Assembly: GCA_945869845.1 (NCBI GenBank)
Contig: CAMBRG010000003.1
Location: 1 to 64,000 of the forward strand
Source of the DNA: Opitutus sp. GAS368
GTDB taxonomy: Bacteria; Verrucomicrobiota; Verrucomicrobiia; Opitutales; Opitutaceae
Direction of reading: 5' to 3'
DNA length: 64,000 nucleotides
Part shown: positions 4,073 to 8,095 of the stretch, one piece after another
Position numbering within the stretch: position 1 is the first letter of the stretch
Layout of the letters: every line of letters begins with the position of its first letter
The notes under the pieces: model-generated
Databases searched by the model: none
Told to the model about the DNA's origin: nothing
What the model saw: the letters and a program-made list of their open reading frames with translations, nothing else
Program-made: the position numbers and the translations under genes

Positions 4073-5269
4073 ATGCCCTACACCGAAGACCGCACTGCTT
4101 GGTATGAAGGCCAAGGCCTATGGCAGCATATTCCCGCCTCAGATTGGAGTGACTGGGTGTGGCAACTGAAGAACCGAATCACGAGTGTGGCTCAGCTGGA
4201 AGAGCGCATGACGCTCACGGCCGACGAGAAGGCCGGCTGCCTTTTTGCCACTCAGAAGCTGGCGCTCGCGATCACCCCTTATTTCTTCAACCTGATCGAC
4301 CGCGATGATCCGAATTGTCCGATTCGGAAGCAGTTGATTCCGCGGGGCGGAGAAGCGGTGGTGAGTGAGGAAGAAATGCTCGATTCGCTCGGCGAGGATG
4401 AGCATTCGCCGGTGCCCGGATTGGTGCACCGCTATCCGGATCGCGTCTTGTTTTTGGTCACGGACCGGTGCGCGGCCTACTGCCGTTATTGCACGCGAAG
4501 CCGGCTGGTTTCGAACGCTCAGGATTACAATTTTCACCCGGAATTTGAACAAGGGTTGAAGTACATTGAGACGCATCCCGAGATCCGTGATGTGCTGCTT
4601 TCCGGCGGCGATCCGCTGCTGCTCTCAGACAAGAAGTTGGATAATCTGCTGTCCCGGCTGCGGGCGATCAAGCACGTGGAGTTTATCCGGATCGGCTCAC
4701 GAATTCCGGTGTTTTTGCCGCAGCGCATCACCCCGGAATTGTGCGAAATTTTCAAAAAGCACGGCCCGATCTGGATGAGCATCCATACGAACCACCCAAA
4801 GGAGGCGACGGCCGAGCTACGGGCGGCGTGCGAGCGGTTGTCGTTTGCCGGCGTGCCGTTGGGGAATCAGAGCGTGCTATTGAAGGGGATCAACGACGAT
4901 GCCGAGGTGATGAAGGCCCTGATGCACCGGCTGCTGCGGATGCGGGTTCGGCCCTACTACATCTACCAGATGGATCTGATCACCGGCGGCGCTCATTTCA
5001 AAGTCGATGTGCGCAAGGGGATCGAGATTATCCGCGCTCTGCGTGGTCACACCACCGGTTATGCGGTGCCGCAATACGTGATCGATGCGCCCGGCGGCGG
5101 CGGCAAAGTTCCGATCAATCCCGATTACGTGGAGAAAATCACCGACTCCGAAGTGGTGTTCCGCAACTACGAAGGCCAACGGTTCAGATATCCGCTGACA
5201 AACACGCCTTTGCCGGCCGGTTCTGAAGGCGAGCGCGATCTCGTGGCGGGAGCTATGATAGTGGACTGA
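4073..5269 (+). CDS. kamA: Lysine 2,3-aminomutase family radical SAM enzyme
   Basis: A radical SAM, PLP-dependent aminomutase that interconverts L-lysine and beta-lysine in known members. The 4Fe-4S motif CAAYCRYC begins near residue 133. It is preceded by VHRYPDRVLFLVTDR and followed by the SAM-binding LLSGGDPLLLSDKKL. The C-terminal APGGGGKVP is where family members carry the PLP-binding lysine. At 398 residues it matches full-length KamA rather than the shorter EpmB. No beta-lysine acetyltransferase (ablB) lies beside it, so a role in N-acetyl-beta-lysine osmolyte synthesis is possible but unsupported by context. A tandem structured-RNA region follows. Confidence 0.9.
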   Translation: MPYTEDRTAWYEGQGLWQHIPASDWSDWVWQLKNRITSVAQLEERMTLTADEKAGCLFATQKLALAITPYFFNLIDRDDPNCPIRKQLIPRGGEAVVSEEEMLDSLGEDEHSPVPGLVHRYPDRVLFLVTDRCAAYCRYCTRSRLVSNAQDYNFHPEFEQGLKYIETHPEIRDVLLSGGDPLLLSDKKLDNLLSRLRAIKHVEFIRIGSRIPVFLPQRITPELCEIFKKHGPIWMSIHTNHPKEATAELRAACERLSFAGVPLGNQSVLLKGINDDAEVMKALMHRLLRMRVRPYYIYQMDLITGGAHFKVDVRKGIEIIRALRGHTTGYAVPQYVIDAPGGGGKVPINPDYVEKITDSEVVFRNYEGQRFRYPLTNTPLPAGSEGERDLVAGAMIVD

Positions 5270-5409
5270 ATCCGTTCTCCGGCGCGGATTGAGGGATCGA
5301 TCGGTATTTTTAATGTTTAGCGATTAAGGATTTAAGCGATGATAACATCGCGAGCAAAAAACTTTCGATTTTTTTGAGCAATTTTGAATCAGACGCATCT
5401 ATCCTAACG

Positions 5410-5515
5410 AAAAGGCCGTCCTGGTAAGACGGTCAGGGTTATAGGTTCAATGGTTTGCTTGGTGTCAGGTTACATGGGCCGCCTCCTTCATCGGGGGCGG
5501 CTCTTGTAGTTTTTG
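5410..5515 (+). ncRNA. Tandem structured RNA, copy A (unknown family)
   Basis: Copy A has a hairpin with stem CCGTC/GACGG and loop CTGGTAA (5416-5432), then TCAGGGTTA, a conserved linker containing GGTT, TTGGTGT and GGTTACATG, and a 9-bp GC-rich terminator-like hairpin (5478-5501) followed by a T-rich stretch. Copy B, 202 bp downstream, has the same order and spacing with compensatory substitutions in the stems. Sequence upstream is also partly shared (TTGAGC and GCATC-TATCCT), which suggests each copy has its own promoter. I do not recognise an Rfam family. Confidence 0.65.
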
Positions 5516-5610
5516 GGGTCTGCGGCCGGGATGGGTCAGCCGTTTTGGAACCCGAAGTTTTCTCCGGCAATTTTGAGCGTTTTCGAAAATCCCGCATCCA
5601 TCTCTTCGTT

Positions 5611-5713
5611 GACAGGGCCGTGCTGGTAACACGGTCAGGGTTAGTAAGTCATTACGGTTCGTTTGGTGTTCGGTTATATGAGCCGCCCCTTAAACGGGGC
5701 GGCTTCTTTTTTC
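5611..5713 (+). ncRNA. Tandem structured RNA, copy B (unknown family)
   Basis: Copy B has the same architecture as copy A: stem CCGTG/CACGG with the identical CTGGTAA loop (5618-5634), TCAGGGTTA, the GGTTCGTTTGGTGTTCGG linker, and a terminator AGCCGCCCC/GGGGCGGCT (5681-5704) followed by TCTTTTTT. Relative to copy A, one closing pair switches C-G to G-C and a terminator U-G pair becomes C-G. Paired changes with an invariant loop are what a selected RNA fold would produce. There is no ORF inside. Confidence 0.68.
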
Positions 5714-5799
5714 CCGACGGGGTGGCTTCGCGTCAAATTCGGGAAATTTGGAGGAAATTCTTGCGCCGCCGATGATCACGCTTTTGCTCCGCTTTGCCT

Positions 5800-5889
5800 G
5801 TAGGGGTGTCTTCCGCGGAAGACTGAGATTGCGGCGCGATTCGGCCGCTCGACCCTTCGAACCTGAACGGATCATGCCGACGAAGGAAA
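5800..5889 (+). promoter_or_regulatory. TPP (THI-element) riboswitch
   Basis: The conserved thiamine pyrophosphate aptamer cores are present: GGGGTG near 5803, CTGAGA at 5823-5828, and the 3' block ACCCTTCGAACCTGAACGG running into ATCATGCC and GAAGGAA. The order and spacing match the TPP aptamer. Two intrinsic terminators follow immediately, so control is probably by transcription termination. The gene it controls is the TBDR at 5975. Confidence 0.95.
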
Positions 5890-5893
5890 CAGC

Positions 5894-5917
5894 AGGCGCG
5901 GATTGCGCCTTTTTTTG
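5894..5917 (+). terminator. First terminator of the TPP riboswitch platform
   Basis: Stem AGGCGC/GCGCCT with a 5-nt loop, then seven T, starting 5 nt after the aptamer. It is the probable ligand-controlled expression platform. Confidence 0.85.
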
Positions 5918-5918
5918 A

Positions 5919-5942
5919 GGGCGCGACTCGCGCCCCTTTTTT
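5919..5942 (+). terminator. Second tandem terminator
   Basis: Stem GGGCGCG/CGCGCCC with loop ACT, then a six-T run, directly after the first terminator and 32 nt before the receptor ATG. Confidence 0.85.
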
Positions 5943-5974
5943 CGGCGGTCCGTTTGGGTTGGGCATCATCCACC

Positions 5975-8095
5975 ATGCATCCTCCGATTCGAATCTCTCT
6001 TCTCAGCTTCGCGCTCGCCGCGACGTTGCCCGCCGCCGAGCTGGCCCAATCGCCCGGCGCCGTGACGTTGGCGCCCGTGCGCGTCACGGCCGATCTCTGG
6101 GCTTCACCACTCGCGCAAATTCCGGCGAGCGTGACCGTCTTCGACGAAGCGACTCTCCGCCTCGGGGCGGTCGGTCATTTTGGCGACTTGGCCGACCGGA
6201 TTCCCAATCTCACGTTTACCGGCGGCACTTCGCGACCGCGGTATTTTCAGATCCGCGGGATCGGCGAGAACTCCCAATACGAAGGCGAGACGCCGGATTC
6301 CGCGGTGCGTTTTCTCGTCGATGATTTTGATTTTACGGGGCTTGGCACGCTCGGGAGCACGTTTGATGTCAGCCAAATCGAGGTCTTGCGCGGGCCGCAG
6401 GCCGGTGCGTTCGGGGCCAACGCAGCGGGGGGCGTCGTGCGCCTGGTGACCAACGCGCCGACGCCGTTTTGGACGGGACGCGTCGAGTCGCGTTTCGGCG
6501 AAGACGCGTTGCGCGAGGGCGGATTTGCGCTCGGTGGTCCACTGGTCGCTGCACAGCCCGATCGTTTCATGGTGCGTCTGGCGGTGCAGCAGCACGCGAG
6601 TGACGGCTTTCGGCGCAACGCCACGCTCGGCCGCGCGACCAACGCCCGCGACGAGTTCAACGCCCGGCTCCGGCTGACGGCCAATCTCGCGCCGGCTTGG
6701 CGCTGGGAAGGCGCGGTACTCTTTTCCGAGGTAAACAACGGCTTCGACGAGTTTGCGCTCGATAACAACGGCCGCCGCACGTTCAGCGATCAACCGGGGC
6801 GCGACGAACAGCGCTCCACCGCCGCCAGCCTGCGCGGCACTTATTCCGGGCTCGATGGCGTGCGGCTCACGACCATCACGAGCGGCACCCGGGTGAATTC
6901 GGTTTACAGTTACGACGACGACTGGACCGCCGCGTCTTACGCAGGCTTCAGTGATCTTCGGCGCTCGCGGAACGGCTTCAACCAGGAGCTGCGCCTCGAC
7001 TCTGTACTCACGCGCGGTGCGTTCGGGGCCATCGACCGGTGGACGCTTGGCGGCTTCTACGCGAACCTAGCCGAGGACAGTTTCTATACGAACGAAGATC
7101 CTTTCGACCAGCGCGGCCTGCGCACGCGTTACGAGTCCGATCAATTCGCAGGCTTCGGTCAGCTCGCGCACGATTTCTCGCCGCGCACGCGCCTCATCGT
7201 CGGCTTGCGCGTCGAGCTCGTCGATGTCGGCGGCCGCGGCACGAAGACCCGCTTCCGGAAAACGCAAAACACCTTCGACCCCGTGGTCACTTTTTCGCCG
7301 GCCTTCGACGACACGCTCCTCGGCGGGAAACTCACGCTTGAGCACGACCTCACCGGCGCCGTGCTCGCGTTTGCCTCGGTCACGCGCGGTTACAAAGCCG
7401 GCGGCGTCAACCTCGATGCGCGCATCAATCCGCCGGCCGATCCGCTGACCTACGGCACCGAGATGCTGTGGAACACCGAGGTTGGCCTGCGCGGTTCTTG
7501 GCTGGAGCGTTCGCTCACGGCGGAGATCACGGCGTTCAGCCTTGATCGCGCCGACACGCAGGTGCGCGACTCGGCGGGTTTCGGCGGCAACTACCGCTTC
7601 TTCACGGCCAACGCCCGCGCCGCCCACGTTACCGGCTTCGAGGCCGCGGTGAATTATGCGCTGACTCCCGCCTGGTCCGTCGCCGGCACGCTCGCGGCGA
7701 TGGAGTCTGAACTCGATCCGTTTTCGCTCACCAACGGCAACTCCGGCGGCGGTCGCCCGCTCGCGAATACGCCGCGCACCGGCACCACGTTGGGCACGCG
7801 CTACCGGCCGGCCCCGACCGGGCTTTTCGCGTCGGCCGAACTCGTCGCCCGCGCCGAGCAATTCGACTCCAATAACCAAAACGAAGCGCGTCGCGCGTTC
7901 CGCCTCTACAACGCCAGCCTCGGCTATGCGTGGCGCGAATGGACGTTCACACTCTGGGGGAAAAATCTCACGAATACGCGTCATGAGAAACGCGTGTTCT
8001 TCTTTGGCAACGCAGACCCGGACTACGTCGAGACGCGCTACGAGACTCGGGCCGATCCGCGGCAGCTCGGCGTGAGCGCGGAGTATCGGTTCTGA
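5975..8095 (+). CDS. TonB-dependent receptor, predicted thiamine uptake
   Basis: Outer-membrane beta-barrel receptor using TonB-ExbBD energy. The 706-residue protein has a short signal peptide (LLSFALAATLPAAELAQ), a plug starting around VRVTADLWASPLAQIPASVT and including QIRGIGENS and IEVLRGPQAGAFGANAAGG, and a barrel ending SAEYRF with the terminal Phe typical of Bam substrates. There is no carboxypeptidase-like N-terminal domain. The upstream frame reaches 5903, but that overlaps the terminators, so ATG 5975 is used. The TPP riboswitch upstream predicts a thiamine or thiamine-precursor substrate, by analogy with riboswitch-linked thiamine receptors in Bacteroidetes. Substrate is inferred from regulation only. 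Confidence 0.9.
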   Translation: MHPPIRISLLSFALAATLPAAELAQSPGAVTLAPVRVTADLWASPLAQIPASVTVFDEATLRLGAVGHFGDLADRIPNLTFTGGTSRPRYFQIRGIGENSQYEGETPDSAVRFLVDDFDFTGLGTLGSTFDVSQIEVLRGPQAGAFGANAAGGVVRLVTNAPTPFWTGRVESRFGEDALREGGFALGGPLVAAQPDRFMVRLAVQQHASDGFRRNATLGRATNARDEFNARLRLTANLAPAWRWEGAVLFSEVNNGFDEFALDNNGRRTFSDQPGRDEQRSTAASLRGTYSGLDGVRLTTITSGTRVNSVYSYDDDWTAASYAGFSDLRRSRNGFNQELRLDSVLTRGAFGAIDRWTLGGFYANLAEDSFYTNEDPFDQRGLRTRYESDQFAGFGQLAHDFSPRTRLIVGLRVELVDVGGRGTKTRFRKTQNTFDPVVTFSPAFDDTLLGGKLTLEHDLTGAVLAFASVTRGYKAGGVNLDARINPPADPLTYGTEMLWNTEVGLRGSWLERSLTAEITAFSLDRADTQVRDSAGFGGNYRFFTANARAAHVTGFEAAVNYALTPAWSVAGTLAAMESELDPFSLTNGNSGGGRPLANTPRTGTTLGTRYRPAPTGLFASAELVARAEQFDSNNQNEARRAFRLYNASLGYAWREWTFTLWGKNLTNTRHEKRVFFFGNADPDYVETRYETRADPRQLGVSAEYRF

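Follow-up and report, generated by a model that had tools for sequence, protein, structure and literature searches.

The window (the whole stretch of 64,000 nucleotides that was analysed) carries in tandem, both on the plus strand, two copies (~5408-5515 and ~5608/5610-5713) of a predicted small RNA (sRNA) of a previously uncatalogued family, whose kind is already known, namely that of sibling sRNAs whose promoter resembles that of an alternative sigma factor. The copies are probably stand-alone sRNA genes of ~105 nt, the products of which would be sibling trans-acting regulators made under an ECF-type sigma factor, with a conserved core as the recognition element and without Hfq or ProQ. Comparison of sequences has shown that the RNA comprises, throughout the family, two covarying hairpins, an unpaired core of ~35 nt and an intrinsic terminator, with an upstream element at fixed spacing at nearly every copy. 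The own promoter and terminator, the variable downstream genes and the several siblings per genome point to a trans-acting sRNA, and a conserved structured RNA with its own terminator and no coding signal, as characterizes intergenic sRNAs of the sibling type, was found. An earlier sequence-only reading of this DNA had proposed, among other things, paired small RNAs, a guess that fits stand-alone units each with a promoter-like element and a terminator of its own.

The two copies lie at the places and in the layout which that reading had described. They are 88% identical over 5409-5441 and 5611-5643, and each is predicted to fold into a 5' hairpin of 7 bp and a strong terminator hairpin followed by a T-rich tail, with an unpaired linker in between; the terminator hairpin corresponds to the GC-rich terminal hairpin noticed before (fold z-scores against shuffles of -3.1 and -2.5 for the two copies). 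The first sRNA (5408-5515, plus strand, with the 5' start, ~5408, predicted and the 3' end placed at the T tract) is matched by the covariance model of the family at 5406-5518 (100 bits, E 4e-20), in agreement with its fold. Its predicted promoter occupies 5371-5403 of the same strand, with TTTTTGAGCA at 5371-5380, a spacer of 15 and CATCTATC at 5396-5403, following the consensus over 109 copies. Within the RNA there follow the 5' hairpin GGCCGTC-CTGGTAA-GACGGTC (5414-5434), backed by the covariation of helix 1, the mostly unpaired conserved core GGTTTGCTTGGTGTCAGGTTACA (5452-5474), most columns of which are invariant among 34 sequences, and the terminator hairpin with its T tract (5471-5514), backed by the terminator fold and the covariation of helix 2. 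The second sRNA (5608-5713, plus strand; model match 5608-5720, 101 bits, E 3e-20) has the predicted promoter at 5570-5602, with ATTTTGAGCG at 5570-5579, a spacer of 15 and CATCCATC at 5595-5602, the 5' hairpin GGCCGTG-CTGGTAA-CACGGTC at 5616-5636 (fold and helix 1 covariation), the core GGTTCGTTTGGTGTTCGGTTATA at 5656-5678, as placed by comparison of the copies and by the 34-sequence alignment, and the terminator hairpin with its T tract at 5680-5712 (terminator fold).

Some details of the sequence-only reading had to be corrected. Of the paired changes that it had seen between the copies, the replacement of C-G by G-C at the top of stem 1 is truly two-sided, but that of U-G by C-G in the terminator is one-sided; the CTGGTAA loop, called invariant, is so between these two copies, but relatives have different loops in its place, among them GCAAG and GCAGG, or in some cases no hairpin at all. 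Against the statement that there is no ORF inside, a TTG-start ORF of 106 aa does occupy 5455-5775, but its frame is not conserved, being broken by stops or an altered spacing of the copies in three of the four close relatives checked, while in the fourth (L005) the second half is read in a different frame; a hidden protein was therefore rejected.

A blastn search with copy 1 gave close matches in most of the sampled genomes of the same genus and in many other genera, and 34 copies were assembled into an alignment (A2). Over the 22 pairs of the named structure, which was itself drawn from members of A2, this alignment not being fitted to it, 93.1% of cells were paired against 86.1% in shuffles, and two-sided changes occurred in 12 of the 22 pairs against 6.7 in shuffles, so that the stems, the loss of which in homologues would have spoken against a structured RNA, have been kept. 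None of 500 shuffles matched any of the five covariation measures, and pairing fell to 39-53% on sliding the 3' partners. Two-sided changes were present in 5/7 pairs of helix 1 (96% of cells paired) and in 7/15 pairs of the terminator helix (helix 2); at the level of sequence comparison, both stems are proven by compensatory changes. The covariance model built from A2 found matches, at a cut-off of E <= 0.01, in 110 of 150 sampled Opitutaceae genomes and in 34 of 49 genera, with the model-building sequences matching by construction and most matching genomes not being contributors; the copies were often in tandem and their number was low (1-3). In a class-wide sample, the sole matches outside the Opitutaceae were two weak ones from another family of the class (L080 and L081), rejected as terminator-like chance matches without the core. 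A core scan of 84,980 species genomes returned 82 stretches, labelled Opitutaceae, Opitutia, Verrucomicrobia or a genus therein, with one exception labelled "bacterium". As judged by these searches, the family is found across the Opitutaceae and nowhere convincingly outside them.

The RNA had been described as unrecognised, and an Rfam search had been proposed as a check; no known family was returned at gathering score. Thus, the sole gathering-score match of Rfam 15 in the whole window was the TPP riboswitch at 5792-5905 (plus strand; RF00059, 61.7 bits), a neighbour separate from the RNA and located ahead of a TonB-dependent receptor gene (5903-8095), with none over the RNA itself, and 20 homologous loci likewise gave no family over the RNA at this score. 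At lax thresholds, the best score over the RNA was that of STnc240 (RF02074; 23.9 bits against a gathering score of 55), the others being RcsR1 (RF02552; 16.5 against 60) and mmgR/suhB (RF00519; 15.3 against 41). Membership in these families was rejected, the scores being sub-threshold and mostly contributed by the terminator, while all of them share the general design of a small RNA that is unpaired in its 5' part and has a terminator. In the open-access literature, no study of a trans-acting sRNA was found for Opitutaceae or other Verrucomicrobiota. On the whole, the comparative data support the notion of an unrecognised structured RNA with covarying stems, present in two copies with their own promoters.

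The most conserved part of the RNA is unpaired: it is the stretch GTAGTTCTTAC-GGTTTGCTTGGTGTTAGGTCACA of ~35 nt, almost invariant across genera, within which the linker GTAGTTC-N4-GGTTTGCTTGGTGTTAGGTCACA is the least changeable, and the conserved linker between the hairpins, pointed out earlier from the two copies, proved to be the most conserved part among the relatives as well. In many members, the terminator stem reaches into the end of the linker (CACAAGAGCC.../...GGCTCTTGTG). The core is kept in copies that have no 5' hairpin and in distant genera whose hairpin and terminator sequences differ completely; therefore, what is essential in the RNA does not lie in the 5' hairpin with its CTGGTAA loop. 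Shortened members that lack this hairpin (L070/L075, L125, L127, L138, L140, L151), often one of a tandem pair, have their predicted RNA start only 12-20 nt before the core.

Through the unpaired core, the sibling RNAs may contact a single partner or a few, which would most likely be mRNAs recognised by base pairing, or else a protein; the 5' hairpin would protect the RNA end, the terminator hairpin would both end and stabilise the RNA, and neither Hfq nor ProQ would be required. In GcvB, a G/U-rich sequence of the sRNA pairs with many translation-start regions. Such pairing of the G/U-rich core was rejected, as no enrichment over shuffled cores was obtained: against 1875 predicted translation-start regions in 2.4 Mb of the complete genome G049 of another genus (56% of this one genome, with gene starts called by a simple script, which leaves room for a few specific targets), the duplex energies of the cores equalled those of shuffled cores, and perfect 8- and 9-mer complements at the translation starts were rarer than in most shuffles. 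The start regions of kamA, carA and the TonB receptor gave no excess complementarity, and a gene for a lipoprotein of 139 aa, in which codons 2-5 (AACACCAAGC) offer 10 perfect pairs, was abandoned as a candidate target, the site being kept in only 4 of ~28 orthologues. A long complementary target was rejected as well: within the genus, near matches on the complementary strand to 21 nt of the core belonged only to the RNA genes and their paralogues, and the 15-mer core complements in 38 genomes were situated at RNA genes or similar sites (five of these known by match only). The negative target searches leave as the partner either a few mRNAs contacted via short seeds or a protein, and the invariant stretch of 35 nt, exceeding the usual base-pairing seed, may point to the latter. 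Binding or titration of a protein in the manner of 6S RNA or CsrB, with the invariant core as the protein-binding site in place of pairing with mRNA, would accord with the near-invariance of these ~35 nt across genera, the lack of excess complementarity to translation-start regions and the several copies per genome. However, the core shows neither a repeated GGA nor any other recognised protein motif, the copy number of 1-3 is low and no protein candidate is known, so that this reading is considered rather unlikely.

For the trans-acting sRNAs of the preferred reading, a promoter-like element of their own is a characteristic of the sibling type, and a conserved element at fixed spacing appears to supply it at each copy. 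Ahead of 109 distinct copies, the bipartite pattern TTTTTGARCG-N15-CRTCTATC scored best; its spacer was exactly 15 long in 106 of these, and the scores were 11-18 of 18 (at least 15 in 92/109) against 9-15 in shuffled sequence. The conserved RNA start GTAGTCA lies ~5 nt past the element; in distant genera the upstream boxes are of the AACG type. The supposition that each copy may have its own promoter has thereby gained ground, and the description of the upstream sequence as partly conserved was an understatement. The general form of ECF-sigma promoters is GARC/AAC-N16-CGTC. In 106 of the 109 copies the element reads GARC-N16-CRTC, that is, an AAC/GARC-like box and a CGTC-like box ~16 nt apart, as in ECF promoters, and it resembles an ECF-sigma promoter, the sigma factor being assigned by motif only. 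A sigma-70 promoter fits poorly, since the downstream box is not TANNNT at a usual spacing. For ECF promoters, CGTC has been described together with a spacer of 16 +/- 1, and certain ECF factors have just one transcript as their regulon (PMC3426412). Like the ECF41 promoters (TGTCACA-n16-CGTC; PMC3426412), the element is bipartite, with a downstream box that resembles CGTC and a spacer close to 16, and stands at almost no other gene, but its upstream box is TTTTTGARCG (AACG in distant genera) and not TGTCACA. In 13 genomes of the same genus, the RNA genes are the only places where the pattern recurs, its remaining matches being as frequent as those of a reversed-pattern control, and in the 2.4 Mb of G049 most pattern matches fall inside genes; a large promoter regulon was rejected accordingly. 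Being confined to the RNA genes, the element looks dedicated to them. An ECF-type alternative sigma factor may drive it, and such a promoter would restrict the production of the RNAs to one particular condition. It is a tentative and doubtful extension of this reading that a dedicated ECF sigma factor has sibling non-coding RNAs as almost its sole output, and that these act via one invariant unpaired sequence of 35 nt, without Hfq or ProQ, on a partner (protein or RNA) without a known counterpart in other bacteria.

The usual upstream neighbour of the RNA is a gene for a KamA-family radical SAM aminomutase, found in the window at 4073-5269 of the plus strand (TIGR00238, 358 bits against a cut-off of 199). 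Of the 80 loci whose upstream sequence sufficed, 64 have kamA as the immediately preceding gene in the same orientation, usually with carA farther upstream, and the RNA typically lies 80-450 nt after kamA; at 15 loci kamA is absent despite sufficient room. Downstream genes differ between genomes in identity and strand. In 28 of 77 loci, some of them without kamA, a TPP-like site follows the RNA within 700 nt, as it does in the window. Within the genus, tandem pairs cluster by position, copy 1 with copy 1 and copy 2 with copy 2, while in two other genomes both copies cluster with each other, from which duplication or conversion more than once may be deduced (9 of the 34 inner branches of the copy tree being well supported). 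Several genomes of the same genus (L223, L226, L227, L228, L229, L231) have a further copy beside a tRNA-Met(CAU) gene of the opposite strand; this copy has a promoter-like element to itself and differs in its terminator. A third core-like site in the window's own genome, outside the window, is TAACACCAAACAAAC on the minus strand at G000:C25:30813-30827, and it is common to G062 and G185.

The shared strand and the typical distance of 80-450 nt after kamA would suit an RNA derived from the kamA 3'-UTR, co-transcribed and released by termination or processing without a promoter of its own; however, the fixed-spacing element is present at each copy, including second copies and those away from kamA, and the 15 loci that lack kamA carry the RNA as well, which makes such an origin very improbable. 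The least probable reading is a cis-acting element (riboswitch or attenuator) for a neighbour, such as the TPP-riboswitch/TonB-receptor gene or kamA: the conserved position after kamA and the TPP-like site in part of the loci speak for it, but each copy ends at its own terminator, no conserved same-strand set of downstream genes was found, the variation of these genes in identity and strand makes a riboswitch unlikely, the copy beside the tRNA gene lacks both of these neighbours, and what is conserved is an unpaired linker and not a folded pocket, which also disfavours the new riboswitch class that had been guessed at.

With Pfam models, Hfq was found in 0/61 and ProQ in 0/41 Opitutaceae genomes (control genomes being positive), so that no host-encoded chaperone of an Hfq- or ProQ-dependent sRNA was identified, and sRNA regulation in the family would need another helper or none. 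The closest working analogues are the tandem sibling sRNAs and LhrC. Multicopy, tandem sibling sRNAs are exemplified by OmrA/OmrB, PrrF1/2 and AbcR1/2, of which OmrA/B were discovered partly by Hfq binding (PMC4211561). They share with the present pair the tandem arrangement of homologous intergenic sRNAs of ~80-110 nt, with conserved stretches in common and separate terminators, but are mostly Proteobacterial; for the present family neither Hfq nor ProQ was found, and at the level of Rfam the sequences show no similarity. LhrC of Listeria monocytogenes is stress-induced, and its characterised regulation is mostly Hfq-independent, via unpaired conserved motifs (PMC13350326). The tandem copies with a further copy elsewhere and the unpaired conserved motifs are similar, although LhrC belongs to a Firmicute and directs CU-rich motifs against ribosome-binding sites, whereas the core described here is G/U-rich and no complementarity of it to ribosome-binding sites was found. 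The family is well delimited, occurs widely and in some genomes is present in several copies; a covariance model for it is ready, its start site is predicted, a promoter has been proposed, and of its carriers at least Cephaloticoccus capnophilus has a species name. It offers a direct handle on sRNA regulation in bacteria for which neither Hfq nor ProQ was found.
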